From positions 141,077 through 205,076 of the forward strand of contig JAJBSV010000009.1 in assembly GCA_020861185.1 (NCBI GenBank): DNA of 64,000 bases, given 5' to 3'. The translations under genes and the position numbers were made by a program. A model generated the notes under the pieces. The model did no database searches, was not told the DNA's origin, and saw only the letters and a program-made list of their open reading frames with translations. Positions 10,863-63,650 of the stretch are shown here, in pieces (position 1 is the first letter of the stretch; each line of letters begins with the position of its first letter). This stretch comes from Ruminococcus sp. (GTDB taxonomy: Bacteria; Bacillota; Clostridia; Oscillospirales; Ruminococcaceae).

Positions 10863-10873
10863 TGTGTTCATGC

Positions 10874-10930
10874 AGAAAAGAAGCCCGGTAGAATATTCCA
10901 TTTGCTGAAATGGAAAACACCCACCGGGCT
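10874..10930 (-). terminator. Terminator after the AlbA_2 protein gene
   Basis: Outer arms AGCCCGGT/ACCGGGCT (10882-10889, 10923-10930) enclose a second stem built from ATTCCATTT/AAATGGAA; a TTCTTTTCT tail follows on the minus strand. Confidence 0.7.
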
Positions 10931-10937
10931 GTTATCG

Positions 10938-44184: not shown

Positions 44185-44210
44185 TTTCTTTGACCTCCCA
44201 ATGTTGTATA

Positions 44211-46142
44211 TCAGAGCTTCGATTTCGTGTAATCGAGAAGACCGCCTGCAAGAATAATCTCCCTGTCACGGGCGGAGAGCTCAATCTTGAGTGTGACCGA
44301 TTCGCCTGTGGTGAGATTCTTAAGTTCTACGGTGTCGCCGGTTGCGACGGCATCGCGAAGATTCGTGAGGCTGAGCTTGTCGCCCTGAGAAATCTTTTCA
44401 TAGTCGGATTCCGTCTCGAAAGTAAGGGGCAGGATTCCGGCGTTTATGAGATTAGCCTTGTGGATTCGGGCAAAGGACTGAACGACTACAGCCTTGATGC
44501 CGAGGTAGAGCGGAGCCAGAGCGGCGTGCTCTCTTGAGGAGCCCTGACCATAGTTCGAGCCGCCGACGATGATGCTTGTACCGAGGCTGAGAGCTCTCGC
44601 CGGGAACTCAATGTCGACAACCTCAAAGCAATGCTTCGAGATTTCGGGGATGTTGGACCTGAGCGGCAGAATTTTCGAGCCGGCAGGCATGATGTGATCT
44701 GTAGTGATATTGTCGCCGACTTTAAGCGAGCACTCAGCTTCGATTGAATCGGGAAGCGGCGAAGTCTTCGGGTAGCCCTTGATGTTCGGTCCCCTCTTGA
44801 TTTCGACTGCCGGAGCGTCTTCCTTGGAAGCCGGAAGCTCGACCATGTTGTCGTTGATGACGAACTCTTCGGGCATCTTGAATTCGGGCATATCGCCGAG
44901 GGTTCTCGGGTCGGTGAGAACGCCCGTGAGCGCCGAAGCGGCGGCGGTTTCGGGAGAAATGAGATAAACCTGTGCGTCCTTGGTGCCGCTACGACCTAAG
45001 AAGTTACGGTTGAATGTTCTGAGCGAAACGCCCGCAGAGTTGGGCGACTGACCCATGCCGATGCAGGGACCGCAGGCGGATTCGAGAATTCTCGCGCCGC
45101 AGTCAATCATATCCGAAAGATACTCGCCCTTCGAGAGCATGTTGAGAACCTGCTTCGAGCCGGGAGCGATGGACAAAGAAACGTCCGGGTGAACGGTCTT
45201 GCCCTTTAAGATATAGGCGACCTTCATCATATCGACAAACGAGGAGTTTGTGCAGGAGCCGATGCAGACCTGATTAATCTTCATCCCTGCAAGCTCGCTG
45301 ACGGGCTTGACGTTGTCGGGAGAGTGCGGGCAAGCCGCCAGAGGCTCGAGGGTGCTGAGGTCTATCACGAGCTCTTCGTCATAGACTGCGTCGGAGTCGG
45401 CTTTGAGCTCAACCCAATCGGCTTCCCTGCGCTGTGCCTTCATGAATTCATATGTCTTCTCATCCGACGGGAAGATGCTTGTTGTAGCGCCGAGCTCGGC
45501 CCCCATATTCGTAATAGTAGCGCGCTCGGGGACGCTGAGGGTCTTGACGCCCTCGCCGGTGTATTCGATAATCTTGCCGACGCCGCCCTTAACGGTGAGG
45601 CGTCTCAGTACTTCGAGAATTACGTCCTTAGCAGAAACCCAAGGGCTGAGCTTGCCGGTGAGCTCGACTTTTACCATCTTCGGATGGGTGATATAGAGCG
45701 GACCGCCGCCCATTGCGACTGCGACGTCGAGACCTCCCGCACCGATTGCGAGCATTCCCAAGCCACCACATGTGGGGGTATGTGAATCAGATCCGATGAG
45801 GGTCTTGCCGGGAATGCCGAAGCGTTCGAGGTGAACCTGATGGCAGATGCCGTTGCCCGGACGGGAGAACGAAATTCCACGCTTTTTGGCGACCGAACCG
45901 ATAAACAGGTGGTCGTCGGCGTTCTCGAAGCCGGACTGGAGAGTGTTGTGGTCGACATATGCGACGCTCTTCTCCGTTCTGACGGAGGGAATCTCCATTG
46001 CCTCAAGCTCGATATATGCCATCGTGCCGGTGGCATCCTGAGTCAAAGTCTGGTCAATCTTAATTCCGATTTCGGAACCCTTTTTGAACTCACCGTCAAC
46101 GAGGTGAGCCTTTAAAATTTTTTCAGCTACGGTATAACCCAT
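44211..46142 (-). CDS. acn: Aconitate hydratase
   Basis: Isomerises citrate to isocitrate with a [4Fe-4S] cluster. The 643-residue protein contains the cluster ligands in CIGSCTNSS and CGPCIGMG, the substrate loops [10 protein letters not shown] and NFLGRSGT, and the C-terminal swivel domain with [20 protein letters not shown]. The start at 46142 is chosen for AAAGGGGG and the promoter just upstream. Cotranscribed with icd. Confidence 0.95.
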
Positions 46143-46173
46143 GCTATCGCCCCCTTTATTTAGTGTTAGGTTT

Positions 46174-46202
46174 ATTTTAATACAGTAACGAGCCGATGTC
46201 AA
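46174..46202 (-). promoter_or_regulatory. Promoter of acn-icd
   Basis: TTGACA (46197-46202), 17-bp spacer, TAAAAT (46174-46179) on the minus strand. Confidence 0.82.
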
Positions 46203-46254
46203 TAGCACTCCCTCATCTTTGGATAATTTGCCGAATCGGACATCAAATATTTGC

Positions 46255-46280
46255 AAAAAAGGCGACATAAAGCCGCCTTT
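46255..46280 (-). terminator. Terminator of the 46.3-47.5 kb operon
   Basis: AAAGGCG and CGCCTTT (46258-46264, 46274-46280) pair around a short loop; a run of six T follows on the minus strand. Confidence 0.78.
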
Positions 46281-49686: not shown

Positions 49687-49758
49687 TTTATATTTTCACC
49701 ACCAACAGCTGTCTTTCAGCGGAGGACACTTATATATCAAATGTCCTTCCGGTAAACT

Positions 49759-49787
49759 ATTGTAGCATATAATAATCAAAATAGCAA
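49759..49787 (-). promoter_or_regulatory. Promoter of the acyltransferase-yitT unit
   Basis: TTGCTA (49782-49787), 17-bp spacer, TACAAT (49759-49764) on the minus strand. Its leader contains a small hairpin (GGACA/TGTCC). Confidence 0.7.
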
Positions 49788-49832
49788 CAGGATTTTGCGC
49801 GCATTTTGGTAAAATTTAAACTGCATCAAAAC

Positions 49833-49861
49833 TTGACACTTTGACTTTAACATGATATAAT
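49833..49861 (+). promoter_or_regulatory. Promoter of the glutamate synthase operon
   Basis: TTGACA (49833-49838), 17-bp spacer, TATAAT (49856-49861). Transcription should start around 49867-49870, almost directly at the regulatory hairpins. Confidence 0.9.
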
Positions 49862-49867
49862 TTTTTG

Positions 49868-49933
49868 TAATGAGCAAAGGCGTTCATATAGGGGATAGTC
49901 TACCCTTTTGAAGGAAACGTCTTTGCTTTTTTT
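49868..49933 (+). promoter_or_regulatory. Putative ANTAR-responsive attenuator (two hexaloop hairpins plus terminator)
   Basis: Two small stems can form: P1 GAGC/GTTC (49872-49875, 49882-49885) with hexaloop AAAGGC, and P2 GGGG/TACCC (one bulge; 49891-49894, 49901-49905) with hexaloop ATAGTC. Both loops have A at position 1 and G at position 4, the ANTAR-target consensus. Alternatively 49873-49884 pairs with 49916-49927 into a long stem followed by T7, a terminator that excludes P1. The operon encodes an ANTAR protein at 56234. Binding is inferred. Confidence 0.7.
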
Positions 49934-49956
49934 CTTAAACGAAAGGAAGAGAAGTC

Positions 49957-51048
49957 ATGAAGTTGGAAGGTCAGGTACGCATACCTTCGGGCTGTGCAAT
50001 ATCCGCCGTAATTTCAAAGGACGGCAGAAAGATGAGCGGAGACGCCATTATCAAGAGCATGGTACCTATGCACGACCGCTCAAACGGTCTGGGAGGCGGA
50101 TTCGCCGCATACGGTATTTATCCGGAATATAAGGAGTTCTTCGCCCTGCATATTTTCTACAACGACAATAACGTCAGGATGGAATGCGAGAATTTACTCA
50201 AGGATGGATTCGAGATTATCAAATCCGAGAGCATCCCGATAAGAAAGACTCCGAAAATCTCGGACGTTCCGCTTATCTGGAGATACTTCGTTGCTCCGAT
50301 GTCGTCGGTTCTGTCAAGATTGCATGTCGACGAGAAGGAATATGTTGCGGAAACGGTCATGAAGATTAACTCCCAGATTAACGGCGCATATGTCTTCTCA
50401 TCCGGAAAGAATATGGGCGTATTCAAGGCTGTCGGTTACCCTGAGGATGTCGGCTATTTCTACAGACTCGACGAATATGAGGGCTACTGCTGGACGGCTC
50501 ACGGAAGATATCCGACGAACACCCCCGGTTGGTGGGGCGGCGCTCACCCGTTTGCATTCCTTGATTACACAATCGTCCACAACGGCGAGATTTCTTCATA
50601 CGACGCTAACCGCCGCTATATAGAAATGTACGGCTACAAGTGCACACTTCAGACCGATACCGAGGTTATCACATATATTGCTGATTATCTTCTTCGCAAG
50701 CAGGGCTTGACCCTCGAGGAGACTGCCTCGGTTATTGCTGCTCCCTTCTGGTCGACTATCGAAAATAAACCGGAAGAAGAGCGTAAGAAGTTCAGTTACC
50801 TCCGAACCGTTTACTCGAGCTTACTGGTCACGGGACCTTTCTCGATAGTTCTCGGTTTTGAAGGTGGACTGATGGCTCTTAACGACAGATTGAAGCTTCG
50901 GTCGATGGTAACCGCAGAGAAGGACGATCTCGTGTTCGTAGCAAGCGAGGAATCGGCGATAAGGGTTATGTGCCCCGATGCGGAGAATGTTTATGCTCCG
51001 TCGGGCGGCGAGCCGATTATCGTCAGAGTTGAGGAGGGAAAATACTGA
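49957..51048 (+). CDS. Glutamate synthase, glutamine amidotransferase subunit (split GltB)
   Basis: A class II glutamine amidotransferase of 363 residues that supplies ammonia for glutamate synthesis. The nucleophile is expected in SGCAISAVIS (Cys13), after removal of a short propeptide. GRYPTNTPGWWGGAHPFA and DYTIVHNGEISSY are the substrate-binding motifs of the family. AAGGAAGAG precedes the ATG, 24 bp after the attenuator. The gene overlaps the next by ATGG. Together with 51048 and 54230 it makes up the three parts of a GltB chain. Confidence 0.88.
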   Translation: MKLEGQVRIPSGCAISAVISKDGRKMSGDAIIKSMVPMHDRSNGLGGGFAAYGIYPEYKEFFALHIFYNDNNVRMECENLLKDGFEIIKSESIPIRKTPKISDVPLIWRYFVAPMSSVLSRLHVDEKEYVAETVMKINSQINGAYVFSSGKNMGVFKAVGYPEDVGYFYRLDEYEGYCWTAHGRYPTNTPGWWGGAHPFAFLDYTIVHNGEISSYDANRRYIEMYGYKCTLQTDTEVITYIADYLLRKQGLTLEETASVIAAPFWSTIENKPEEERKKFSYLRTVYSSLLVTGPFSIVLGFEGGLMALNDRLKLRSMVTAEKDDLVFVASEESAIRVMCPDAENVYAPSGGEPIIVRVEEGKY

Positions 51049-52553
51049 TGGCTATAAATTTTGTAAACCCCGAATTTGAGGTAGTAAGGAATCCCAACCG
51101 CTGTATAGCGTGCAGGGTCTGCGAGCGTCAGTGCTCTAACGGCGTTCACAGCTTCGACCCCGAAACGGGTACAATGATGTCGGACGAGACAAAGTGCGTC
51201 GACTGCCAGAGATGCGTGGCGCTTTGCCCGACAAGAGCTTTAAAAATCGTCAAGAACGAGTGCCAGCTAAGAGAAAACGCCAACTGGCAACAGGACACCA
51301 TCTATGAAATCTACAAGCAGGCGGGAAGCGGAGGAGTTCTTCTTTCTTCGATGGGCAACCCGAAGCCGCTCCCCGTTTACTGGGACAAGATTCTTATAAA
51401 CGCTTCGCAGGTTACGAATCCTCCTATCGACCCGCTTCGTGAGCCGATGGAGACGAAGGTATTCCTCGGCAAGAAGCCGATAATGCCGGAAAGAAATCCC
51501 GACGGAAGCTTAAAGACCAATTTGGCTCCTCAGCTCGAGCTTTCGATGCCGGTCATGTTCTCGGCGATGAGCTACGGCTCAATCAGCTACAACGCACACG
51601 AGAGCCTTGCAAGAGCCGCAGAAAACCTCGGCATCTACTACAACACCGGTGAAGGTGGACTTCACGAGGACTTCTATAAATACGGTGCCAACACCATTGT
51701 CCAGGTTGCATCCGGTCGTTTCGGAGTTCACGAGGATTACCTCAGTGCGGGTGCCGCAATCGAGATTAAGATGGGTCAGGGCGCAAAGCCGGGCATCGGC
51801 GGACATCTGCCGGGTAAGAAGATTGTCGGCGACGTCTCGAGAACAAGAATGATTCCCGAGGGCTCGGACGCTATCTCCCCCGCCCCGCACCACGATATCT
51901 ACTCTATCGAAGATTTAAGACAGCTCGTATATTCTCTGAAAGAAGCGACACAGTATACAAAGCCGGTTATTGTAAAAGTAGCGGCTGTACATAACATCGC
52001 CGCAATCGCAAGCGGTATTGCACGAAGCGGCGCAGACATCATCGCAATCGACGGCTTCAGAGGCGGAACCGGTGCGGCTCCGACAAGAATCAGAGACAAC
52101 GTCGGCATCCCGATTGAGCTTGCACTGGCTTCTGTTGACCAGAGGCTCCGTGATGAGGGCATCAGAAACAACGTATCCCTCGTTGTCGGCGGAAGTATCC
52201 GCTCGGCTTCGGACGTTGTAAAGGCTGTAGCCCTCGGCGCAGACGCCTGCTATGTCGCGACCGCCGCACTTCTGGCTCTCGGATGCCACCTCTGCAGGAC
52301 ATGTCACACCGGCAACTGCAACTGGGGCATCGCAACCCAGAAGCCGGAGCTCGTCAAGAGACTTAACCCCGACATCGGCTCACAGAGGCTCATCAATCTT
52401 ATGACCGCATGGCAGCATGAGATCAAGGAGCTCATGGGCGGTATGGGTATAAACTCGATTGAGGCTCTGAGAGGAAACAGACTGATGCTCAGAGGCGTAA
52501 ACCTCAACGAGAAAGAACTCGAGATACTCGGTATCTCGCATGCGGGAGAGTGA
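51048..52553 (+). CDS. Glutamate synthase FMN subunit with N-terminal ferredoxin domain
   Basis: A 501-residue protein. Residues 15-70 hold two [4Fe-4S] motifs (CIACRVCERQC, CVDCQRCVALCP). The rest is the FMN-binding glutamate synthase barrel: MSYGSISYNAHESLARAAEN, TGEGGLHEDF, MGQGAKPGIGGHLPG, IDGFRGGTGAAP and the Cys cluster LGCHLCRTCHTGNCNWG for the 3Fe-4S centre. It joins 2-oxoglutarate and ammonia using electrons delivered by the ferredoxin domain. This archaeal-type split form lacks the GATase and GXGXG parts, which are separate genes here. Confidence 0.92.
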   Translation: MAINFVNPEFEVVRNPNRCIACRVCERQCSNGVHSFDPETGTMMSDETKCVDCQRCVALCPTRALKIVKNECQLRENANWQQDTIYEIYKQAGSGGVLLSSMGNPKPLPVYWDKILINASQVTNPPIDPLREPMETKVFLGKKPIMPERNPDGSLKTNLAPQLELSMPVMFSAMSYGSISYNAHESLARAAENLGIYYNTGEGGLHEDFYKYGANTIVQVASGRFGVHEDYLSAGAAIEIKMGQGAKPGIGGHLPGKKIVGDVSRTRMIPEGSDAISPAPHHDIYSIEDLRQLVYSLKEATQYTKPVIVKVAAVHNIAAIASGIARSGADIIAIDGFRGGTGAAPTRIRDNVGIPIELALASVDQRLRDEGIRNNVSLVVGGSIRSASDVVKAVALGADACYVATAALLALGCHLCRTCHTGNCNWGIATQKPELVKRLNPDIGSQRLINLMTAWQHEIKELMGGMGINSIEALRGNRLMLRGVNLNEKELEILGISHAGE

Positions 52554-52558
52554 CGGAT

Positions 52559-52987
52559 ATGAAAAGAGTTTATGTAAACGAAAAATGGTGCCTTGGGTGT
52601 CATCTCTGCGAGTATAACTGCGCTTTTGCAAACTCGGGGCTAAAGGATATGGCAAAGCTCAAGGGCAAGGAAATCTACCCGAGAATCAGGGTTGAGGGCG
52701 ACGACAAGATTACTTTTGCAATCTCCTGCCGCCACTGTGAGGACCCCATCTGCATCAAGAGCTGTATTTCGGGAGCACTCTCGAAGACCCCTGACGGTAT
52801 GGTCGAAATCGACAAATCAAGATGCGTCGGATGCCTCACATGCGTCCTCGTTTGCCCCTATGGCGCCGTTATTCAGGACGGCGACGGAGCGGTTCAGAAG
52901 TGCGAGCTCTGCCTCAAGAACTCATCGGGTGCCCCAGCATGCGTTGCCGGTTGCCCGAACAACGCGATTGTTTACGAAGAGAGGTGA
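52559..52987 (+). CDS. Polyferredoxin, HycB/HydN-like electron-transfer protein
   Basis: A 142-residue iron-sulfur protein with four Cys sets: CLGCHLCEYNC, CRHCEDPICIKSC, CVGCLTCVLVCP and CELC ... CVAGCP, suggesting up to four [4Fe-4S] clusters. Such proteins pass electrons between an oxidoreductase and a partner. The start at 52559 follows GGGAG; it sits between the FMN subunit and the FAD oxidoreductase, so it probably links the two. Confidence 0.9.
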   Translation: MKRVYVNEKWCLGCHLCEYNCAFANSGLKDMAKLKGKEIYPRIRVEGDDKITFAISCRHCEDPICIKSCISGALSKTPDGMVEIDKSRCVGCLTCVLVCPYGAVIQDGDGAVQKCELCLKNSSGAPACVAGCPNNAIVYEER

Positions 52988-52992
52988 GCGAA

Positions 52993-54228
52993 ATGGCAAA
53001 GAAGTATGTTATCATCGGCAACGGAACCGCCGCTGTCGGCTGTATAGAGGGCATCAGAGCAAACGACAAAGACGGCTCCATCACCGTTATCTCGGCTGAG
53101 AAGCACCCCGCTTATTGCCGTCCGCTTATCTCCTATTACCTTGAGGGCAAGGCTGTTCCCGAAAGAATGAGCTATCGCCCGGACGATTTCTATGGCAAGA
53201 ACGGCGTCAAGGTCATCTATGGCGAGAGTGCCGAGAAGATTGATGCTGACAAGAAACAGGTAGTTCTCGAAAGCGGAGAAAAAATCCCCTACGACAGCGT
53301 TTGCGTTGCCGCGGGCTCGAGACCGCTCGTTCCGCCTTTTGAAGGGCTCGACACGGTTCCCGTGAAGTTCCCCTTCATGACGCTTGACGACGCACAAAAC
53401 CTTGAAGGCGCAATCTCCGAAGACAGTGACGTCTTCATCGTTGGCACCGGACTTATCGGGCTTAAGTGTGCCGAGGGTCTTTACGGAAGAGTAAAGTCAA
53501 TCACCGTCTGCGACCTTGCGGACAGGGTTATGCCGAGTATCCTCGATACCGAGACAGCAGAAATGATGAAAAAGCGCCTCGAAGACAACGGCTTGAAGCT
53601 GATGCTTTCCGACACCGCCACCAAATTCGACGGCAATGTCGCCTATATGAAGAGCGGAGCAGAGGTCAAGTTTGACGTTCTCGTTCTTGCTGTAGGCGTA
53701 AGAGCCAACATCTCGCTCGTAAAAGATGCAGGCGGCGACTGCGGAAGAGGAATCACTGTCGATAACCACATGGCGACATCACTCCCCGACATCTATGCCG
53801 CAGGAGACTGCACGGAATCTATGGACTATTCTTCCGGCAACGTCAAGGTTATGGCTATCATGCCGAACGCCTATATGCAAGGGCACTGCGCCGGCGAGAA
53901 CATGGCGGGCAAGGACGTAACATTCGACAACGGCATTCCGATGAATGCAATCGGCTTCTTCGGATTCCATGTCATGAGTGCCGGCACTCCCGACGGCGAG
54001 CTCTATGAGGAAAAGTCGGATTCACATATCAAGAAGCTGTTCACCAAGGACGACAGACTTGTTGGGTTCATTCTGGCGGGCGACACGACCCGTGCCGGAA
54101 TTTATACAAATTTGATAAGAAACGGTATTTCTCTTAGCTCTATTGACTTTGATACCATAAAAACAGCTCCAAATATCTTTTCTTTTGGTCAAGAATACTG
54201 TAGAAATTCTCTCGGAGGTGTGGTATAA
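52993..54228 (+). CDS. NAD(P)/FAD-dependent oxidoreductase of glutamate synthase
   Basis: A 411-residue pyridine-nucleotide-disulfide-type oxidoreductase: FAD-binding YVIIGNGTAAVGCIEGI at the N-terminus, NAD(P)-binding VFIVGTGLIGLKCAEGL near the middle and the second FAD motif PDIYAAGDCTES. It resembles NADH-rubredoxin and nitrite-reductase-like FAD proteins. In this operon it probably takes electrons from NAD(P)H for the polyferredoxin and FMN subunit, replacing a standard GltD. The ATG at 52993 has GAGGTGAG upstream; a longer frame overlapping the previous gene is rejected. Confidence 0.88.
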   Translation: MAKKYVIIGNGTAAVGCIEGIRANDKDGSITVISAEKHPAYCRPLISYYLEGKAVPERMSYRPDDFYGKNGVKVIYGESAEKIDADKKQVVLESGEKIPYDSVCVAAGSRPLVPPFEGLDTVPVKFPFMTLDDAQNLEGAISEDSDVFIVGTGLIGLKCAEGLYGRVKSITVCDLADRVMPSILDTETAEMMKKRLEDNGLKLMLSDTATKFDGNVAYMKSGAEVKFDVLVLAVGVRANISLVKDAGGDCGRGITVDNHMATSLPDIYAAGDCTESMDYSSGNVKVMAIMPNAYMQGHCAGENMAGKDVTFDNGIPMNAIGFFGFHVMSAGTPDGELYEEKSDSHIKKLFTKDDRLVGFILAGDTTRAGIYTNLIRNGISLSSIDFDTIKTAPNIFSFGQEYCRNSLGGVV

Positions 54229-54229
54229 T

Positions 54230-54946
54230 ATGTTGATAGATGTTTCAGGCTTGGGATTCAGCGAAATAAATTCCCTGATTCGCGCTCAGGGCGAGAGCTG
54301 TCACCTCACCGGTTGCCTCAGCCAGAGGTTCATCGGTGCCGGTATGTCCTACCGTGAAATCACGATTGACGGCACTCCCGGTAACGCACTCGGGGCTTAC
54401 CTCAACGGCGGCGAAATCACCGTCAACGGCAACGCTCAGGATGCAGTCGGCGACACAATGAACGATGGCAAGATTATAATCAACGGTCACGTCGGCGACG
54501 CCGTAGGCTATGCGATGCGTGGCGGCGAGATTTACGTCAGGGACAGCGCGGGCTACCGTGCGGGAATCCACATGAAGCAATACAAGGAAAAGAGACCGGT
54601 TATGGTCATCGGCGGAAGAACCGGAAGCTTCCTCGGCGAATATCAGGCAGGCGGCTTGATAATCGTTCTGGGGCTTCACAAGGACGGCAAGCCCATCGTC
54701 GGCAATTTCCCGGGCACGGGAATGCACGGCGGCAAGCTGTTTCTTAGAAATGCCGAAGGTCTTTCGTTCCCGGCGCAGGTCAATGTGAACGAAGCAACAG
54801 ACGAGGACATGGCGGAAATTACGCCGTATGTCGAGAACTACTGCAAGTACTTCGGTGCGGACATCTCGGAGATAATGAATTCTTCGTTTACAGTGGTTAC
54901 TCCGAACTCGAAAAACCCGTACAAGCAGCTTTACGTTAATAACTGA
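54230..54946 (+). CDS. Glutamate synthase GXGXG (GltB C-terminal) subunit
   Basis: A 238-residue beta-helix protein matching the GXGXG domain of glutamate synthase. The repeated turns are visible: GNALGAYLNGGEITVNGNAQ, GDTMNDGKIIINGHVGDAVG and GYAMRGGEIYVRDSAGYRAG. This domain links the amidotransferase and synthase sites in one-chain enzymes; here it is its own gene. GGAGG precedes the ATG by 11 nt. It follows the FAD oxidoreductase directly. Confidence 0.9.
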   Translation: MLIDVSGLGFSEINSLIRAQGESCHLTGCLSQRFIGAGMSYREITIDGTPGNALGAYLNGGEITVNGNAQDAVGDTMNDGKIIINGHVGDAVGYAMRGGEIYVRDSAGYRAGIHMKQYKEKRPVMVIGGRTGSFLGEYQAGGLIIVLGLHKDGKPIVGNFPGTGMHGGKLFLRNAEGLSFPAQVNVNEATDEDMAEITPYVENYCKYFGADISEIMNSSFTVVTPNSKNPYKQLYVNN

Positions 54947-54972
54947 TTGGCATAGATAAAGGACGGTGCAAA

Positions 54973-56181
54973 ATGAGCTATACTCCCGACGAAATTCTCC
55001 AGTATATCGAGGAAGAGGATGTTAAGTTCATCCGCTTGGCGTTCTGCGATGTTTTCGGAACACCGAAAAACATTTCCATCATGCCGAACGAGATGAGGCG
55101 TGCCTTCGAGCAGGGTATCTCGATAGATTCCTCAGCAATCGCCGGCTTCGGCGACGAAAGCCGCTCGGACATGCTCCTTATCCCCGACCCTTCGGAGATA
55201 TCCATTCTCCCCTGGAGACCGGAGCACGGAAGAGTCGTAAGAATGTTTTGCACCGTTTGCAATCCGGACAAAACGGTCTTTGAAGCGGACACAAGAAGCT
55301 TGCTCAAGAAAACCGCAGAAGAGCTTAAAACAGAAGGATTCGAATTCAATTTCGGTCCCGAGACGGAGTTTTATCTCTTCAAGCGTGACGAAAACGGCGA
55401 GCCCACAAAGATTCCCTATGACCATGCGGGCTATATGGACATAGCGCCCGAGGACAAGGGCGAAAACGTCCGCCGTGAAATCTGCTTAACACTTGAGCAG
55501 ATGGGCATCGTGCCGGAATCCTCCCACCACGAGGAGGGTCCGAGCCAGAATAAAATCAGCTTCAGATATTCCGACGCCCTCAAAGCCGCGGACCATGCGA
55601 TTACATTCCGCTCGGTAGTAAAGACCATTGCCGCAAGGAACGGACTTGTCGCGGACTTCTCACCGAAGCCGCTCGACGGTCTTCCCGGCAACGGCATGCA
55701 CATAAATATCTCCGCTGTATATAACGGCGAGGATGTCCTTCCTTACGCAACAGCGGGAATACTCAAACATATTTCCGAAATAACGCTGTTTTTAAATTCC
55801 CATCCCGATTCATACAAAAGGTTCGGTGCAAACAAGGCACCCCTCTATATATCATGGTCGGAGCAGAACCGCTCCCAGCTCATAAGAATTCCCGCAACCA
55901 AGCGTGAATACAAGAGAGCGGAGCTGAGGTCTCCCGACCCGATGTGCAACCCTTATCTCGCACTTTTACTTCTCATGAAGGCTATGGCAGACGGAATCAG
56001 GAACAACCTTCCCCTCTGCCCTCCGACCGACATAAATCTCTTCAAGGCATCGCCCAAGGAGCTTTCGGGCTTTGAAATGCTTCCGAGAAGCCTCGGCGAA
56101 GCCGTTACTGCGGCTCAGGACTCCGATTTCGTCAGAGCCTCGGTTCCGCAGTCGATAATCGACAACTACTCTTCAAGATAA
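54973..56181 (+). CDS. glnA: Glutamine synthetase (short type I)
   Basis: Makes glutamine from glutamate and ammonia with ATP. The 402-residue enzyme is shorter than the usual 440-470. Active-site segments are present: FGPETEFYLF, SSHHEEGPSQNKISFRY, GNGMHINIS, and ELRSPDPMCNPYLAL for ATP/metal binding. No adenylylation-type Tyr loop is apparent in the C-terminal part, in line with Gram-positive enzymes. AGGACGG precedes the start. It is in the same operon as glutamate synthase and the ANTAR regulator. Confidence 0.93.
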   Translation: MSYTPDEILQYIEEEDVKFIRLAFCDVFGTPKNISIMPNEMRRAFEQGISIDSSAIAGFGDESRSDMLLIPDPSEISILPWRPEHGRVVRMFCTVCNPDKTVFEADTRSLLKKTAEELKTEGFEFNFGPETEFYLFKRDENGEPTKIPYDHAGYMDIAPEDKGENVRREICLTLEQMGIVPESSHHEEGPSQNKISFRYSDALKAADHAITFRSVVKTIAARNGLVADFSPKPLDGLPGNGMHINISAVYNGEDVLPYATAGILKHISEITLFLNSHPDSYKRFGANKAPLYISWSEQNRSQLIRIPATKREYKRAELRSPDPMCNPYLALLLLMKAMADGIRNNLPLCPPTDINLFKASPKELSGFEMLPRSLGEAVTAAQDSDFVRASVPQSIIDNYSSR

Positions 56182-56233
56182 GTAAGCCATATAATATAAT
56201 TTGTAACGCCATATTAAACCGGGGGTCGTGAAA

Positions 56234-56839
56234 ATGGAACTCAAAGAGAAGGTATACAGCGTCTTGGTTGTATCGTCCTCCGAAAAATTTTCCGGCGTTA
56301 TAAAAAGGCTTCTTCCGGGCAACATGTACTCCCCCGTTTCGACTGCGACGGACGTCAGCTCCGCAAAAAGGCAGGTTCTTGAGCGGAACTATGACATCGT
56401 GATGATAAATTCGCCGCTTACGGACGAATTCGGAAAGCGATTCGCAATCGACCTCAGTAGTAGCTCCGGCTCGGGAGTGATACTCTTTGCAGGCTCGGAG
56501 CACTTTCCGGAAATCAGCGAAATGCTGATGCCATACGGAGTGCTTACGATTCCGAAGCCGGTGAGCGTCCCGCTTATACAGCAGTCGCTTCTGATACTTC
56601 GGGGCACTCGGGAAAGACTCAGGCGAATGGAGAAGAAGAGTCCGACATTTGAAGAGAAGATGGCGGAAATCAGGCTTGTCAATCAGGCAAAGCTCCTACT
56701 TATTACAAAGTGCGAAATGAGCGAAGCACAAGCTCACAGATATATCGAAAAGCGTGCGATGGACACTTGTGTCCCGAAGAAAGTCGCCGCAGGGGATATA
56801 ATAAAGGAATATGAACAAAACGGCAAGGAGGATATGTAA
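56234..56839 (+). CDS. ANTAR-domain RNA-binding antiterminator with degenerate receiver
   Basis: A 201-residue regulator. Residues about 5-120 have the shape of a receiver, but the acidic pair is replaced by SSS ([10 protein letters not shown]) and the phosphoacceptor position reads MINSPLTD, while the PKP lysine remains; so it is probably not phosphorylated. Residues about 140-195 form an ANTAR domain ([20 protein letters not shown], then [17 protein letters not shown]). ANTAR proteins bind paired hexaloop RNA hairpins to block terminators. The likely target is the leader at 49868. pyrG overlaps its stop. Confidence 0.88.
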
Positions 56840-58452
56840 TGGCTGTTGGAACTACCAAGTACATTTTCGTAACCGGAGGTGTTGTTTCGGGACTCGGCAA
56901 GGGTATTACCGCCGCTTCTCTCGGACGACTTCTCAAGGCAAGGGGACTCAAGGTGGCGGCTCAGAAGCTTGACCCGTACATCAACGTTGACCCCGGGACG
57001 ATGAGTCCCTATCAGCACGGCGAGGTTTACGTCACGGAGGACGGCGCAGAGACCGACCTTGACCTCGGACATTATGAAAGATTTATAGACGAGGATCTGA
57101 ACAAGTATTCAAATCTCACTACGGGAAAGGTATACTGGAACGTACTCAACAAAGAGCGTCGGGGCGAGTATCTCGGTTCGACCGTTCAAGTCATCCCCCA
57201 CATTACAAATGAAATCAAGGACTTCGTCTACCGTGTCAGCAAGAAGACACAGGCGGACATTGTCATCACCGAAATCGGCGGCACCATCGGCGACATCGAA
57301 TCACAGCCTTTTATCGAAGCTGCAAGACAGATCTCCCTCGAAGTAGGACGGGAGAACAGCCTTTTCATTCATGTCACACTGGTGCCGTTTTTGCGCGGCT
57401 CCGACGAGCATAAATCAAAGCCCACTCAGCACTCCGTTAAGGAGCTTCAGGGAATGGGCATCAACCCGAACATCATCGTTCTTCGTTGCGACGAGCCGCT
57501 TGAGGACTCGATATTCAAGAAGATTTCGATGTTCTGTAACGTCAAGCCGGACTGCGTTATAGAAAACATCACTTTACCTAGCATCTATGAGGCTCCGACA
57601 ATGCTCGAGAAGGCAAACTTCTCCTCTGTCGTATTAAGAGAGCTCCACATCGACGCTCCCGAGCCGGATTTAAGCGACTGGCTCGCGATGCTCGACATGA
57701 TCAAAAATCGTTCGGGAGAGGTCAACATCGGTCTCGTCGGCAAGTACATACAGCTCCACGATGCTTATCTTTCGGTCGCAGAGGCTTTAAGACATGCCGG
57801 CTTCGCTCTCGGAAGCTATGTAAACATTAGCTGGATAGATTCGGAGACGCTGACCGAAGCGACATATGAAGAGACCCTAAGTCACGTCGACGGAATCATC
57901 GTCCCCGGTGGATTTGGAAACAGAGGAATCGAGGGCATGGTTCTCGCCGCCAAGTACGCAAGAGAGAACAACGTCCCCTACTTCGGAATCTGCCTCGGAA
58001 TGCAGATTGCCGTTATGGAGTATGCAAGAAACGTTGCCGGAATCACGGACGCCAACTCGGGCGAATTCGATGAGCTTTGCAAGAACAAAGTCATCGACTT
58101 CATGCCCGGACAGAGCGTCGACATCGACAAGGGCGGAACACTTCGTCTCGGAAGCTATCCCTGCGTCATCCAGAAGGGCACTACGATGGAGAGGTGCTAC
58201 GGCGAGGAGCTCATCCACGAGAGACACCGCCACCGCTACGAATTCAATAACGACTACAGAGAGGTTCTCACTTCCCACGGTCTCACACTTTCGGGACTTT
58301 CGCCCGACGGAAGACTTGTCGAGACGGTCGAGCTGACTGAACGTCCCTTCTTCGTCGGAGTTCAGTATCACCCGGAATTCAAGTCGAGACCGAACAAAGC
58401 ACATCCCCTCTTCAAGGGCTTTATCGAAGCCGCAATGAAGCATAAGGGGTAA
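56839..58452 (+). CDS. pyrG: CTP synthase
   Basis: Aminates UTP to CTP using glutamine. The 537-residue enzyme has the synthetase half ([48 protein letters not shown]) and the GATase half ([11 protein letters not shown], nucleophile Cys in FGICLGMQ, and VGVQYHPEF with the catalytic His and Glu). AGGAGG lies in the end of the ANTAR gene, and start and stop overlap (TAATG). Confidence 0.97.
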
Positions 58453-58453
58453 A

Positions 58454-58500
58454 CCCCTCCACCGGCTACGCCGGTCCCCCTCCCCTTTCAGGGGAGGCTA
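58454..58500. repeat. Double-hairpin GC-rich repeat between pyrG and purF
   Basis: Two perfect stems in tandem: ACCGGC-TAC-GCCGGT (58461-58475) and CCTCCCCT-TTC-AGGGGAGG (58479-58497). Such C-rich double palindromes are known to recur in gut clostridial intergenic regions; only one copy lies in this window, so repetition cannot be shown here. Confidence 0.55.
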
Positions 58501-58546
58501 TAAGTAGCTTAGGCAACTTTGTACGTTATCAAAGGGAATGATAAGA

Positions 58547-60007
58547 ATGAATGAAATTCACGAGGAGTGCGGGATTTTCGGGGTTTATGCTCCCGATACA
58601 AGACGACTCTCGGATATGGTTTACTATGGGTTGTATGCTCTTCAGCACCGTGGGCAGGAAAGCTGTGGAATGGTCGTTTGCGACGACGGACTTTTCTATT
58701 CCCATAAGGATTTGGGACTTGTGGGCGAAGTGTTTACTAAAGAGGCTATTGCTTCGCTTCCCTCGGGACAGATGGCTGTCGGACACGTCCGCTATGGCAC
58801 CACCGGCGGCACAAGCAGAGCTAATTGCCAGCCCATCGAAGTAAACCACTGCAAGGGCAGACTTGCTCTTGCTCACAACGGAAATTTGACGAACGCCTAT
58901 GAGCTTCGGGCTCGTCTCGAGCTCTCGGGCGCCATATTCCACACAACCAGCGACACCGAAACCATAGCTTATATTGTCACGCAGGAGCGATTGACTGCAC
59001 CCTCGATTGAGGAAGCGGTGAACCGCGCCGCTTGGCGTTTGGAGGGTGCATATTCCCTCGTATTCATGTCGGCAACTAAGATGATTGCCATGAGAGATGC
59101 GCACGGCTTCCGCCCTCTTTGCTACGGCAAAACGCCCGACGGATGCTATGCCGTCACGTCGGAAAGCTGTGCCCTGGCGGCTGTGGGAGCTGAATTTATA
59201 AGAGACATTCTCCCCGGCGAAATCGTCGTCTTCGACGAGAACGGGGTTTATTCAATCACCGACCACTGCAATAAGAAGCCGGAAAGGCTCTGCGTTTTCG
59301 AATATATCTACTTCGCACGCTCCGATTCCGTGATAAACGGCGTTTCGGTTCATGCGGCAAGAAGAAAAGCGGGAGAACTGCTCGCCAAGAGCCACCCGGT
59401 CGAGGCGGACGTTGTCATCGGCGTGCCTGATTCGGGGCTCGATGCGGCACTCGGCTATTCGATGGCTTCGGGGATTCCGTATGAGCTTGGGTTCATAAAG
59501 AATAAATACGTCGGCAGGACGTTTATTTCCCCTACCCAGAGTGACAGATTAGATCAAGTCCGAATCAAGCTGAGCCCGATAAGCGAAGCGGTCACGGGAA
59601 AGCGCGTTATAATGATTGACGACTCAATCGTCAGAGGCACGACGAGTGCGCAGATAGTAAAGCTTCTCCGCAATGCCGGCGCCACCGAGGTTCACGTCAG
59701 AATTTCGTCGCCGCCGTTCCTTAATCCCTGCTACTACGGCACGGACATTGATTCCGAAAACGGGCTCATCGCCTGCAGTCACACGGTCGAGGAAATCGCC
59801 GAAATCATCGGTGCGGACAGTCTCGGGTATCTCCCGACGGAGGACTTGAAAGTTCTTGCCGAGAGCGAAAACATCTGCACATCCTGCTTCACGGGAGATT
59901 ATCCGACGGGTATTCCCGTCCACACGGACAAGGGTCGCTTCGAGGGAAAGCTCTCCGAAGCGAAGCCGCAAAAATCTCGTTTATACAAGTCGCCAAAGGC
60001 AACTTGA
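58547..60007 (+). CDS. purF: Amidophosphoribosyltransferase
   Basis: First enzyme of purine synthesis (PRPP plus glutamine to phosphoribosylamine). The 486-residue class II amidotransferase shows the processed Cys in HEECGIFGVY, GHVRYGTTGG and LAHNGNLTNAYELR; the PRPP-binding loop is VIMIDDSIVRGTTSAQ. NPCYYGTD, IACSH and NICTSCFTG supply the Cys residues of the Bacillus-type [4Fe-4S] cluster. The start at 58547 fits AAAGGGA at 9 nt; an ATG three codons earlier overlaps that site. Confidence 0.96.
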   Translation: MNEIHEECGIFGVYAPDTRRLSDMVYYGLYALQHRGQESCGMVVCDDGLFYSHKDLGLVGEVFTKEAIASLPSGQMAVGHVRYGTTGGTSRANCQPIEVNHCKGRLALAHNGNLTNAYELRARLELSGAIFHTTSDTETIAYIVTQERLTAPSIEEAVNRAAWRLEGAYSLVFMSATKMIAMRDAHGFRPLCYGKTPDGCYAVTSESCALAAVGAEFIRDILPGEIVVFDENGVYSITDHCNKKPERLCVFEYIYFARSDSVINGVSVHAARRKAGELLAKSHPVEADVVIGVPDSGLDAALGYSMASGIPYELGFIKNKYVGRTFISPTQSDRLDQVRIKLSPISEAVTGKRVIMIDDSIVRGTTSAQIVKLLRNAGATEVHVRISSPPFLNPCYYGTDIDSENGLIACSHTVEEIAEIIGADSLGYLPTEDLKVLAESENICTSCFTGDYPTGIPVHTDKGRFEGKLSEAKPQKSRLYKSPKAT

Positions 60008-60019
60008 TAAAGAATGTCT

Positions 60020-60042
60020 AAAATAGCCCTAATGGCTATTTT
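60020..60042 (+). terminator. Stem-loop between purF and purC
   Basis: AAAATAGCC pairs with GGCTATTTT over a 5-nt loop, followed by an ACGG tail. It can act as a weak terminator or processing site inside the pur run. Confidence 0.55.
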
Positions 60043-60113
60043 ACGGCTTCGCCGCCGCCATTCTTCAAATCCAAAAAATAATATATTTCAAACACTTTTA
60101 GGAGGACATTATC

Positions 60114-60815
60114 ATGAACAAGCTTTATGAAGGAAAGTCGAAAATCGTTTACGAGGGCACAGACCCCGGCACTTGCGTAATCAAGTACAAGGACACCGCA
60201 ACCGCTGGAAACGGCGTTAAGAAGGAAGACCTTCCCGGCAAGGGAATCCTCAACGCCAAGATTTCGAACCTCATTTTCGAATATCTTGCAAAGAACGGCG
60301 TCAAGACCCATCTTATCGAAGTGCTCAGCGAGACTGAGGTTTTGGTCAAGAAAGCCGACATCGTTATGGTCGAGGTCATCGTCAGAAACGTTGCCGCAGG
60401 AAGCTTCTCGAAGAAGTACGGCGTTCCGGAGGGCACCAAGCTCCTTAACACCGTCACAGAATTCAGCCTCAAGAGCGACGAACTCGGCGACCCGATGATT
60501 AACGACTGCCAGATTACCGCTCTCAGCGTTGCGACTCAGGCTGAACTTGACGAGCTCAAGGCAGTATCCCTGAAGGTTGACGAGCTCATGACCGAGCTGT
60601 TCCTTAAGTGCGGCATCAAGCTTATCGACTTCAAGCTCGAATTCGGCAGAGTTGACGGCGAGCTCCTCCTCTGCGACGAAATCTCCCCCGACTCCTGCAG
60701 ACTCTGGGATGCCGAAACCGACGAAAAGCTCGACAAAGACAGATTCCGCAGAGACCTCGGTAACGTCCTCGACGGCTACAGAGACGTTCTTGCAAGACTT
60801 GAAAACGCAATCTAA
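60114..60815 (+). CDS. purC: Phosphoribosylaminoimidazole-succinocarboxamide synthase (SAICAR synthetase)
   Basis: A 233-residue purine enzyme joining CAIR and aspartate with ATP. Visible motifs are LYEGKSKIVYEG at the N-terminus, VEVIVRNVAAGSFSKKYGVP, and LIDFKLEFG followed by DEISPDSCRLWD. TAGGAGG precedes the ATG. It is followed by purB after 23 bp. Confidence 0.96.
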   Translation: MNKLYEGKSKIVYEGTDPGTCVIKYKDTATAGNGVKKEDLPGKGILNAKISNLIFEYLAKNGVKTHLIEVLSETEVLVKKADIVMVEVIVRNVAAGSFSKKYGVPEGTKLLNTVTEFSLKSDELGDPMINDCQITALSVATQAELDELKAVSLKVDELMTELFLKCGIKLIDFKLEFGRVDGELLLCDEISPDSCRLWDAETDEKLDKDRFRRDLGNVLDGYRDVLARLENAI

Positions 60816-60838
60816 AATAATCGGAGGTTTAAACCCCT

Positions 60839-62263
60839 ATGACAGATAAATATGAGAATCCGCTTTGCAAACGATATGCGGGCGAGAAGATGCAGAAAAT
60901 CTTCTCCGACGACACGAAGTTCTCGACATGGCGTAGACTCTGGATTGCTCTCGCTGAGAGCGAGAAAGAGCTCGGGCTCGACATCACCGACGAGCAGATT
61001 GCCGAGATGAAAGAGCACATCTACGACATCGACTATGAGGCGGCGGCGGCTCGTGAAAAAGTCGTCCGTCACGACGTCATGGCACATATCTATACCTATG
61101 GCTTGGTCTGCCCGAAGGCGAAGCCGATTATCCACCTCGGTGCAACAAGCTGTTATGTCGGAGACAACACCGATATTATTTTGCAGAGAGATGCGCTTCT
61201 TCGTATCAGAAGCCTGCTCGTGACCGCTATTTCGGCGCTTTGCGACTTTGCGGAGAAGTATAAGGATCTCCCCTGCCTCGCCTACACCCACTTCCAGGCG
61301 GCACAGCCGACAACTCTCGGCAAGCGCGCAACGCTCTGGCTTCAGGACTTAGTTATGGATCTTGAGAGGCTCGACTTTACCCTTTCGAATCTCAAGCTCC
61401 TCGGTTGCAGAGGCACCACCGGAACCGGTGCAAGCTTCCTTGAGCTCTTTGGTGGGGACAAGGAAAAGGTTCGTAAGCTTGAGAAGCTTATCGCAGAAAA
61501 GATGGGCTTTGAGGCGGCTTATTCCGTAAGCGGACAAACTTATACCAGAAAAGTGGACTATTACTCGCTGTCGGTTCTTTCGGGAATCGCTCAGAGTGCT
61601 CACAAGTTCTCGAACGACATAAGACTCCTCTCGCACCTGAAGGAAGTCGACGAGCCCTTCGAAGCGGGACAGGTCGGTTCCTCGGCGATGGCTTATAAGC
61701 GTAACCCGATGAGATCGGAAAGGATCGCATCTCTGGCAAGATACGTCACGGTCGATGCTTTGAATCCGGCACTCACTGCGAGCGAGCAGTGGTTCGAGAG
61801 AACCCTTGACGACTCGGCTAACCGCAGAATCAGCATTCCCGAAGCTTTCCTGGCTACCGACGGAATCCTGAGCCTCTATATAAACATCATCAGCGGCTTG
61901 AAGGTCTATCCGAAGATAATTGCGAGACACTTGCAGAGTGAGCTTCCCTTCATGGCGACCGAGAACATCCTTATGTACTGCGTCAAGAAGGGCGGCGACC
62001 GCCAGACTCTCCACGAGGCTATCAGAACCCATTCTGTTGCCGCGGCGACCGACATCAAGGAAGGCGGAGACGGAAATCTTATCTCGAGAATCGCAAGCGA
62101 TCCGATTTTTGGGTTGACAGAAGACGAAATCCAGAGTATTATAGATGAAGGCGGCTTCACAGGTCTCGCTTCTGACCAGGCGGCGGAGTATGTCAACTAT
62201 GTCAGAACAGAGATACTACCCAACGAGGGTGAAAAAGCCGACGACGTCACTATAAACGTTTAA
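60839..62263 (+). CDS. purB: Adenylosuccinate lyase
   Basis: A fumarase-superfamily enzyme acting twice in purine synthesis (SAICAR and adenylosuccinate cleavage). At 474 residues it belongs to the longer, eukaryote-like class. Motifs include IHLGATSCYVGDNTDI, TNF-type AYTHFQAAQPTTLGKR with the catalytic His, and the flexible loop signature GSSAMAYKRNPMRSE. CGGAGG precedes the start. It lies between purC and purA. Confidence 0.95.
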   Translation: MTDKYENPLCKRYAGEKMQKIFSDDTKFSTWRRLWIALAESEKELGLDITDEQIAEMKEHIYDIDYEAAAAREKVVRHDVMAHIYTYGLVCPKAKPIIHLGATSCYVGDNTDIILQRDALLRIRSLLVTAISALCDFAEKYKDLPCLAYTHFQAAQPTTLGKRATLWLQDLVMDLERLDFTLSNLKLLGCRGTTGTGASFLELFGGDKEKVRKLEKLIAEKMGFEAAYSVSGQTYTRKVDYYSLSVLSGIAQSAHKFSNDIRLLSHLKEVDEPFEAGQVGSSAMAYKRNPMRSERIASLARYVTVDALNPALTASEQWFERTLDDSANRRISIPEAFLATDGILSLYINIISGLKVYPKIIARHLQSELPFMATENILMYCVKKGGDRQTLHEAIRTHSVAAATDIKEGGDGNLISRIASDPIFGLTEDEIQSIIDEGGFTGLASDQAAEYVNYVRTEILPNEGEKADDVTINV

Positions 62264-62306
62264 AAGCGTTTTCAGCAAAAGCTTTAAAATAGAAAGGAAA
62301 AGGCAT

Positions 62307-63575
62307 ATGCTTACAGCAATAGTTGGAATCAACTGGGGCGACGAGGGAAAAGGCAGAATGGTTGACCTTCTGTCGAAGGACTTCGACATCATCTGCCGCT
62401 ACCAAGGCGGCAACAACGCAGGACACACCGTTATCAACGAGAGAGGAAGCTTCGTTCTGAATCTTCTGCCATCTGGCATCTTCCACGAGACGGCTGTCAA
62501 CGTCATGGGCGGAGGAATGGTCGTTGACCTTGAGCACCTTTGCCACGAAATGGCTTCCCTGCGTGAAAAAGGGATTGAGATAAGCCCCGATAACCTCAAA
62601 ATCAGCGACAAAGCTACCATATGCCTGCCCTATCACAAGGAGCTCGACATCATGGAGGAGGATCGCCTTAAGGACAAGAAATTCGGCTCGACACGCAGAG
62701 GCATTGCTCCCGTTTATGCGGACAAGTACATGAAGAAGAGCTTAAGAATGAGCGATCTCCAGAACCCCGACACACTCGCAGAGAAGGTAAAAGATATCGT
62801 CGAGTGGAAGAACTTAACCTTCAAGGGCTATGGTCACGAGCTCATCAATGCCGATGAAATTTTGGCATGGCTCAAGAAGTACGGCGACGAGATTCTCCCA
62901 TATGTCACTGACGTTTCCTCGTACCTCGAGAAGGCGGCTGACGACGGAAAGAACATCATGTTCGAGGCTCAGCTTGGAGCCCTCCGTGACATCGACTACG
63001 GAATTTACCCCTATACCTCTTCTTCTCAGACTCTTGCCCACTATGCGCCCATCGGCGCCGGAATCCCCGGAAGAAAGCTTGACTGCTCTATCGGCATCAT
63101 GAAGGCATATTCGACCTGCGTCGGCGAGGGACCGTTCACAGCTGAAATGTTCGGCGAAGAGGCTGAGGCACTCAGAGCCGCAGGCGGAGAATACGGCGCC
63201 GCCACCGGAAGACCGAGACGTGTCGGACCCTTCGACGTTCCCGCTTCGAAGTACGGCGTAAGAGTTCAGGGCGCAGATTATCTCGTTCTTACCAAGTTAG
63301 ACGTTCTTTCCTATATGCCGAAGATTCCCGTTTGCGTTCACTATGACGTTGACGGCGAAATCACCGACACCTTCCCGACAGGCGACAGACTCGAGCGTGC
63401 AAAGCCGGTCGTTGAATACGTCAAGGGCTTCGGCGACGTTTCAAAGTGCCGCAAGAAAGAGGATCTCCCCGAGGACGCCCTCAACTATATCCGCCTTATC
63501 GAGCACGCAGTCGGCTGCCCGATAAAGTACGTCTCGGTCGGTGCAGAAAGAGACGAATACATTACAATGTTCTGA
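62307..63575 (+). CDS. purA: Adenylosuccinate synthetase
   Basis: GTP-dependent first step from IMP to AMP. The 422-residue protein has the P-loop-like GINWGDEGKGRMVDLL with catalytic Asp, NNAGHTV (catalytic His), GSTRRGIAPVYADKY, and GAATGRPRRVGPFD. AAAGGAAAAGG precedes the start. With purC and purB it forms a pur set pointing toward AMP. Confidence 0.96.
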   Translation: MLTAIVGINWGDEGKGRMVDLLSKDFDIICRYQGGNNAGHTVINERGSFVLNLLPSGIFHETAVNVMGGGMVVDLEHLCHEMASLREKGIEISPDNLKISDKATICLPYHKELDIMEEDRLKDKKFGSTRRGIAPVYADKYMKKSLRMSDLQNPDTLAEKVKDIVEWKNLTFKGYGHELINADEILAWLKKYGDEILPYVTDVSSYLEKAADDGKNIMFEAQLGALRDIDYGIYPYTSSSQTLAHYAPIGAGIPGRKLDCSIGIMKAYSTCVGEGPFTAEMFGEEAEALRAAGGEYGAATGRPRRVGPFDVPASKYGVRVQGADYLVLTKLDVLSYMPKIPVCVHYDVDGEITDTFPTGDRLERAKPVVEYVKGFGDVSKCRKKEDLPEDALNYIRLIEHAVGCPIKYVSVGAERDEYITMF

Positions 63576-63588
63576 TAAACTACAGCAA

Positions 63589-63618
63589 GCGTTTATCGGC
63601 TTTATTGCCGGTAAACGC
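63589..63618 (+). terminator. Stem-loop between purA and carA
   Basis: A 12-bp stem GCGTTTATCGGC/GCCGGTAAACGC with loop TTTATT (one G-T pair). No T-run follows, so it may be a weak terminator, processing site or leader element of carA. Confidence 0.5.
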
Positions 63619-63650
63619 CTAACTGAAACATAAGGAGGCAAACTCTAGAT

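Follow-up and report, generated by a model that had tools for sequence, protein, structure and literature searches.

A candidate single-hexaloop ANTAR attenuator at the 5′ end of a glutamate synthase/glutamine synthetase operon in Ruminococcus and related Clostridia

In a stretch of 64,000 nucleotides (nt) of DNA from Ruminococcus sp. (GCA_020861185.1, contig JAJBSV010000009.1; hereafter the window, whose positions serve as coordinates), the leader of a glutamate synthase/glutamine synthetase operon carries one conserved hairpin of the type recognized by ANTAR proteins, and the operon itself contains a gene for an ANTAR protein. We propose that this leader is an attenuator with a single hexaloop at the 5′ end of the RNA, operated by the ANTAR protein that the operon encodes, and we give this reading, which is drawn from sequence comparison, a probability of about 0.72. 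An ANTAR-controlled nitrogen operon is in itself known, and leaders of glutamate synthase and glutamine synthetase genes are already listed among ANTAR targets (Ramesh 2012, PMC3369931). What appears to be new, in part, is a conserved attenuator family that would combine one 5′-terminal hexaloop with a regulator lacking the phosphorylated aspartate (Asp), against the two-hexaloop rule.

The leader is compact. A sigma-70 promoter, TTGACA-17-TATAAT with a TG ahead of the -10 element (49833-49861, + strand), matches the consensus at 12 of 12 positions, and the probable, unmapped transcription start lies about 7 nt downstream of the -10 element, at 49868-49870 (+ strand). Eight bases after the promoter end at 49861 begins the putative antitermination hairpin P1 (49870-49887, + strand), identified by folding and covariation, in which ATGAGC and GTTCAT form a 6-bp stem around the hexaloop AAAGGC (49876-49881, + strand; A1, A2 and G4 conserved). 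Folded alone, P1 has a predicted energy of -5.3 kcal/mol (z -3.74), and 1 of 200 shuffled sequences does equally well. An intrinsic terminator follows at 49872-49933 (+ strand), with its 5′ arm at 49872-49885, its 3′ arm at 49914 and 49916-49928, and a run of seven T at 49927-49933. The 5′ arm takes in the loop and the 3′ arm of P1 and pairs them with the segment 49914-49928; because P1 and the terminator use common bases, the two folds are mutually exclusive. The leader as a whole favors the terminator fold (-22.8 kcal/mol; z -4.1 with 0 of 200 shuffles equally good over 49869-49935, z -3.2 with 1 of 200 over 49865-49940). A first-pass annotation of this DNA had called both the strong promoter just before the leader and the exclusion of P1 by a long stem followed by T7, and both calls hold.

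The same annotation described two A1/G4 hexaloops, AAAGGC in P1 and ATAGTC in a second hairpin, P2. The first is borne out by its fold and its conservation, but the second is not: the stretch containing ATAGTC (49890-49907, + strand) has an 8-nt loop and no conserved ANTAR hexaloop, and its energy of -4.9 kcal/mol is typical of shuffled sequence (z +0.51, 130 of 200 shuffles equally good). This hairpin is the tip of the terminator, its apical stem. The further suggestion that P1 replaces P2 at the terminator is right about the overlap, but the lone hairpin occupies the place of the canonical P2, and it is the canonical P1 that is absent.

Rfam gave no match above the gathering threshold over the whole window and none above threshold in an E-value search of 49700-50000; three sub-threshold matches (ncr982, psbA 3′UTR and U12) were taken as chance. 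On six relatives' loci, Rfam returned only 5S rRNA and pemK, with no leader family. The idea of a regulon within the window's own genome was dropped: a search with the 18-mer of the hairpin that allowed three mismatches found a single exact site and a second one with three mismatches, whose loop lacks G4. Our covariance model R1 (E 0.05) likewise has one match in this genome.

To place the hairpin among relatives, we fetched 60 genomes and 80 loci through the operon's first gene (handles beginning with G and L denote genomes and loci). The 80 loci are nearly all titled Clostridia, Ruminococcus, Oscillospiraceae or Lachnospiraceae, and include Ruminococcus albus, Massiliimalia timonensis and Lachnospiraceae bacterium 28-4; from these names we take the class of the sampled genomes to be Clostridia. 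A 14-nt core of the hairpin, with at most one mismatch, lies within 400 nt upstream of the first gene at 71 of the 80 loci. Diverged leaders occur at four more, two placed by eye (L139, L205) and two with two mismatches (L181, L208), and at L162 the hairpin sits about 460 nt upstream. No hairpin was found at L199, at L200 or in the 262 nt of upstream sequence available at L153, and L206 has no upstream sequence.

An alignment of 107 distinct 26-mers, five of them from sites outside the glutamate synthase operon, makes P1 well supported as a conserved hairpin. In the loop, A1 is present in 106 of 107 sequences and A2 and G4 in all 107, while position 3 is free and positions 5 and 6 vary; this loop conservation is partly built in, since the pattern that selected the sequences tolerated two mismatches and left position 3 free. 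The closing pair is C-G in 106/107. In the stem, 94.9% of cells are paired. Five of the seven pairs show both-sided changes, in 25 cells altogether, and none of 500 shuffles equalled the real alignment in any of five measures, in a control that ignores relatedness. When the pairing partner was slid along the alignment, paired cells dropped to 33-45% and the covariation score fell from 0.209 to at most 0.121. The covariation check on relatives' leaders proposed with the first-pass annotation thus comes out for P1; for P2, it shows no conserved A1/G4 loop.

The overlap with a terminator is conserved as well. We reduced the set to 92 distinct leaders by excluding those with two or more mismatches and near-duplicates (at most 8 differences over 58 nt). 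A lenient search (two mismatches, 5 of 8 T) placed a terminator over P1 in 91 of the 92, with the 5′ arm starting inside the loop or in the first two bases past it (offsets 0-7; 91/92). A1 and A2 are present in all 22 leaders whose terminator starts at loop position 4 or beyond, which argues that these two bases are held for something besides the terminator. One leader, L040, has the variant loop AAAGGT, and its terminator arm has changed to match.

Most leaders also share the position of the hairpin relative to the promoter. A promoter with 10 to 12 of 12 consensus matches was called in 89 of the 92 leaders, 49 of them scoring 12/12. The loop starts 11-20 nt past the -10 element in 71 of the 89 (median 15), 21-60 nt past it in 16, and more than 60 nt past it in 2; R. 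albus (L161, L166) belongs to the 18 leaders with longer spacing. If transcription starts about 7 nt past the -10 element, the hairpin comes first in the RNA in those 71 leaders, and there would be no room for the published recruitment hairpin.

The hairpin and the ANTAR domain tend to occur together. We sampled 341 genomes of the class; 51 contain the 16-mer pattern TGARCAANGGCGTTCA, and none contains its reversed control. An ANTAR domain is encoded by 45 of these 51 genomes, compared with 127 of the 290 others (Fisher p 1.5e-9, ignoring relatedness). Model R1 gives a similar division at E 0.001 or better, with ANTAR in 40 of 46 genomes versus 132 of 295 others; at E 0.05, it matches 111 of the 341 genomes, many of them weakly, and only the 46 were compared with ANTAR. 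Among the 60 relatives, a looser 14-mer, GARCAANGGCGTTC, matches in 41 of 45 genomes with ANTAR and 2 of 15 without, but some of its matches fall inside genes (e.g. L108, L119), so we preferred the 16-mer. Physical linkage points the same way: at least 28 of 66 class sites lie 1.7-8.3 kb upstream of a same-strand ANTAR gene (12-kb search), an ANTAR gene is present at 46 of 54 loci with at least 7.5 kb of downstream sequence, and in 53 of 60 cases the ANTAR gene is preceded by glnA, the glutamine synthetase gene, whose end lies no more than 500 nt away. In G007 and G023, the glnA-ANTAR pair is located away from the glutamate synthase operon, and both have the hairpin in front of them. In the window, the ANTAR gene (56234-56839, + strand; PF03861, E 7e-12), which the first-pass annotation had already recognized as the operon's regulator gene, is the sole ANTAR match in a 1.97-Mb genome given as 100% complete. 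The closed-loop layout that the annotation described, an ANTAR-type hairpin excluding a terminator ahead of a nitrogen operon that contains the ANTAR gene, is supported.

The protein itself departs from a canonical response regulator. We aligned the linked ANTAR proteins with a EutV-like protein from L283 and counted residues in 35 proteins, the window's included and that of L283 excluded. The receiver-like domain of the window protein has asparagine (Asn) in place of the phosphorylated Asp, and so do 33 of the 35 proteins, this one included. The window protein has Ser-Ser where the acidic pair would be, and neither Asp nor Glu is among the residues listed for the other proteins (32 and 33 of 34). 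With both the Asp site and the acidic pair lost, phosphorylation by a kinase is unlikely, and a protein partner or a ligand probably governs the activity of the regulator. AmiR, which is controlled by AmiC, offers a precedent, and a phmmer search with the ANTAR protein finds AmiR (1qo0) along with the antiterminator 1s8n. From gene order alone, we would speculate that glutamine synthetase is the first candidate partner.

We then considered the residues that touch RNA, using the EutV contacts and numbering of Walshe 2022 (PMC8934654). Three contacts are kept, K149 and E160 in 35 of 35 proteins and M172 in 34. One locus also offers a possible case of co-variation between protein and RNA. Among the 54 loci that have both a leader and their own ANTAR gene, L181 (leader 6061-6086, ANTAR gene 10789-11370) has the only leader with G at loop position 1 (GATGAT), and its ANTAR protein is the only one with glutamine (Gln) at both loop-facing positions, 164 and 172. 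This is one event, with a chance of about 1 in 54, yet it is what direct contact would predict.

Taken together, these observations suggest the following model. Transcription would begin at or shortly before the hairpin, judging from the promoter. Without bound protein, the nascent RNA would refold, with the loop and 3′ arm of P1 pairing downstream to form the terminator, and polymerase would stop ahead of the first coding sequence. Under a shortage of glutamine or nitrogen, as we suppose, the ANTAR protein would bind the hexaloop through A1 and G4; the bound hairpin would stay closed, and polymerase would read into the glutamate synthase, glutamine synthetase and ANTAR genes. No separate recruitment hairpin would take part. 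Emergence of the hairpin at the very start of the RNA, together with the long apical insert in the terminator, may buy time for the protein to bind.

Several observations weigh against this model. EutV requires both hexaloops (PMC3369931, PMC8934654). Downstream of P1, A1/G4 hairpins with 3-bp stems occur in 18 of the 92 leaders against a shuffle mean of 9.9, a count reached by 2 of 200 shuffles, and those with 5-bp stems in 4 against a mean of 1.6, reached by 17 of 200; some of the 3-bp cases, several among the 18, sit in the 3′ arm of the terminator. The count of both-sided changes in P1 is less decisive than the pairing itself, as some partner slides reach 27, 36 and 24 such cells against the 25 observed, the first two being slides of +1 and +2. 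The EutV contacts R142, Y164, R168, N173 and R175 are changed, Y164 to histidine in 34 of 35 proteins and the other four in most of the 35. Some genomes have the hairpin and no ANTAR match. Six class genomes have the 16-mer and no ANTAR match (G121, G149, G289, G345, G362, G363); the leader of G121 runs into a contig end and the site in G149 lacks promoter-like sequence, but at least G289, G345 and G362, which are 96-99% complete, have real-looking leaders. G040 has the hairpin before purB (L118) with no ANTAR domain found in its genome. We rechecked 20 genomes with an ANTAR-less locus or an odd leader, and 16 proved to have an ANTAR match, whereas G064, G068, G070 and G073 (L154, L167, L172, L193) have a hairpin leader and none. 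Conversely, at L199 and L200 the first gene is present, and ANTAR elsewhere, with no such hairpin. As a check on sensitivity, we searched 11 exception genomes and one positive genome with a profile of the ANTAR alignment; the 11 gave either no match or matches that stop short of the ANTAR part or barely enter it, all before model position 158 of 195, and cover mostly the receiver part. Most of the exceptions are draft metagenome assemblies, in which a missing gene is indistinguishable from a missing contig.

Leaders with two hexaloops do occur in the class. As a positive control, we applied the kind of scan used for a second hexaloop to 20 stretches around ANTAR genes in genomes of the class. 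Nineteen of these stretches came from genomes lacking the 16-mer and one, L278, from G187, which has it. Tandem hexaloops appeared before glnA-like genes (L264, L269, L274), before an ANTAR gene (L280) and in three leaders at L283, a locus that is eut-like by its response regulator, kinase and alcohol dehydrogenase (from reading the translations, with no library run). L264 and L269 fall below the terminator threshold of the control scan and were included for their hexaloop pair. Tandem-like matches without a terminator at L276, L278, L281 and L282, from a scan that accepted A or G at position 1 of the upstream loop, were taken as chance. Single hexaloops were found in the control set at L267, L268, L270, L272, L276, L277 and L279, although at L267, here counted among the single cases, a further hairpin with a loop of 7 nt can be made out upstream by eye. 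We note L283 as a useful dual-hexaloop comparison within the same class.

These leaders bear on the possibility that the ANTAR protein binds P1 while the terminator's apical stem provides a sequence-relaxed second contact or a pause hairpin, so that two hairpins would function after all. The folded leaders do carry an apical stem, and their P1 loop lies farther from the T tract (median 44 nt, n = 91) than the loop does at the tandem sites (range 22-53 nt, n = 7; Mann-Whitney p 0.004). However, the seven tandem sites derive from five genomes, they are not clearly distinct from the single leaders found in other families (p 0.29, n = 7 and 9), and the apical loop has neither a conserved length nor conserved letters. 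We consider this arrangement unlikely.

A different objection is that the leader is an attenuator, or a constitutive partial terminator, under some other control, such as a riboswitch, another protein or NusA/NusG, with the ANTAR gene as a passenger. The leader-bearing genomes without detectable ANTAR fit this idea, as do L199 and L200, which have the first gene and ANTAR without the hairpin. Against it stand the conserved A1/G4 loop with its C-G closing pair, the strong co-occurrence and linkage of hairpin and ANTAR, the coincidence of G1 with Q164 and Q172 at L181, and the lack of any Rfam family matching the leader or the leaders of the relatives searched. On balance, control by something other than ANTAR seems quite improbable to us.

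The search for a second hexaloop among the 92 leaders argues against a conserved dual motif. A1/G4 hexaloops with stems of at least 4 bp occur downstream of P1 in 5 of the 92, against a shuffle mean of 4.2. A hidden hexaloop in the 45 nt upstream of P1 was considered and rejected, with 8 of 92 at 3 bp (10.0 expected from shuffles) and 3 at 4 bp (3.8 expected). A C-G-closed A1/G4 hexaloop on a stem of at least 4 bp is found within 60 nt upstream of P1 in two leaders, L026 and L188, where it overlaps the -10 element, and between P1 and the start codon in just two. The apical loops of the terminators are mainly 3-5 nt (69 of 97), with no common letters. A conserved dual-hexaloop motif is thus not supported in these sequences, in which only P1 is conserved. 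A canonical leader with both AAAGGC and ATAGTC bound is accordingly very unlikely: both window loops do have A and G at the named places and downstream 3-bp A1/G4 hairpins are mildly over-represented, but P2 has an 8-nt loop with a shuffle-like fold, the apical loops are mostly of 3-5 nt and C-G-closed hexaloops downstream of P1 are found in only two leaders.

The operon that would be governed by the single-hexaloop leader is laid out on the + strand, its genes separated by anything from a slight overlap to about 50 nt. It comprises a glutamine amidotransferase class-II domain protein (glutamate synthase domain 1; 49957-51048, PF00310), a glutamate synthase synthase-domain protein with a ferredoxin domain (51048-52553, PF01645, E 8e-141), a 4Fe-4S dicluster protein (52559-52987, PF13247), a pyridine nucleotide-disulphide oxidoreductase (FAD/NAD; 52993-54228, PF07992), a GXGXG-motif protein (glutamate synthase domain 3; 54230-54946, PF01493), glnA (54973-56181, PF00120 and PF03951) and the ANTAR gene. 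Beyond it, also on the + strand, lie pyrG, purF, purC, purB, purA and carA (56839-63998, NCBIfam names; carA is cut by the end of the window), possibly as a continuation of the operon transcript. Conserved linkage of the ANTAR gene to pyrG was dropped as an idea, as it holds at just 6 of 44 loci. An NADP-dependent isocitrate dehydrogenase and an aconitase, enzymes that supply 2-oxoglutarate, are encoded on the - strand at 42970-46268, within a few kb of this operon. Elsewhere in the window, a 24-nt unit is tandemly repeated at 11158-11220 (2.5 copies, 100% matches).

In other genomes, the hairpin is not confined to glutamate synthase. The same hairpin stands before purA, purC, pyrG, asnB, a GlnP-like permease gene and glnA (NCBIfam names), and before dapF (L115) and purB (L118). 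Thirty class loci were fetched for this comparison; at three of them no following gene was obtained (L237, where the contig ends, L238 and L261), and the gene at L258 had no NCBIfam match. A single hairpin of the same type precedes amt at L277. The target at L115, dapF for diaminopimelate epimerase, is unexpected for a nitrogen regulon. Genomes of the class that have separate hairpins before pyrG, purC, purA or purB contrast with the window's continuous pyrG/pur run; it looks as if a scattered regulon had here been gathered behind one leader.

The leader shares much with known ANTAR systems. The dual-hexaloop motif as defined by Ramesh 2012 (PMC3369931) has tandem hairpins with stems of at least 3 bp and A1 and G4 in the loops, and deletion of the first hairpin of eutP ablates induction (same source). 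Like the leaders of eut (Enterococcus faecalis EutV), nasF/NasR and amiE/AmiR, the present one has an A1/G4 hexaloop, a C-G closing pair, exclusion of a terminator, an ANTAR protein and nitrogen genes; unlike them, it has one hexaloop hairpin, at its apparent 5′ end, and no upstream recruitment hairpin. It resembles the Desulfotomaculum leaders of Ramesh 2012 (PMC3369931) in the kind of target gene and regulator, although those came from a dual-hairpin covariance model and are compared here by their description only. An ANTAR gene also accompanies the glutamine synthetase-glutamate synthase (GS-GOGAT) cluster as nitR in Clostridium acetobutylicum and in Clo1313_2030-2036 of Clostridium thermocellum, and a 2015 paper suggested that it acts as an antiterminator (PMC4676874); the parts of that paper we consulted describe no leader RNA element. 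The actinobacterial survey in PMC8164766 demanded dual stem-loops.

Closest to our proposal is the finding that a EutV dimer binds one hexaloop, from which the first hexaloop was proposed to recruit the protein and the second to antiterminate (Walshe 2022, PMC8934654). A minimal ANTAR site would then be one hexaloop, as here, but Walshe 2022 puts single sites where the time limit set by a moving polymerase is absent, whereas our hairpin overlaps the terminator and would therefore have to act during transcription. The same paper states that the role of single-hexaloop motifs needs more work. In the openly readable literature, supplements aside, we found no description of a single-hexaloop ANTAR attenuator, and the phrase ‘single hexaloop’ together with ANTAR or ‘hexaloop’ led only to Walshe 2022.

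In the accepted model, one of two hexaloops recruits the protein and the other blocks the terminator. Clostridia seem to offer natural single-hexaloop attenuators that would act against a moving polymerase, and because comparable tandem leaders exist in other families of the class, the need for a recruitment hairpin is directly testable. A broader proposal, which we regard as possible but doubtful, is that one 5′-terminal hexaloop suffices in Clostridia, that starting transcription at the hairpin and a longer insert replace the recruitment hairpin, and that the Asp-less receiver reads the state of glutamine synthetase. If so, the glnA-ANTAR pair would be a self-contained glutamine sensor over the genes for glutamate synthase, asnB, amt, and purine and cytidine triphosphate (CTP) synthesis. 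The pattern TGARCAANGGCGTTCA right past a -10 element also provides a precise signature for mapping the nitrogen regulons of Clostridia, many of them known from rumen and gut samples.

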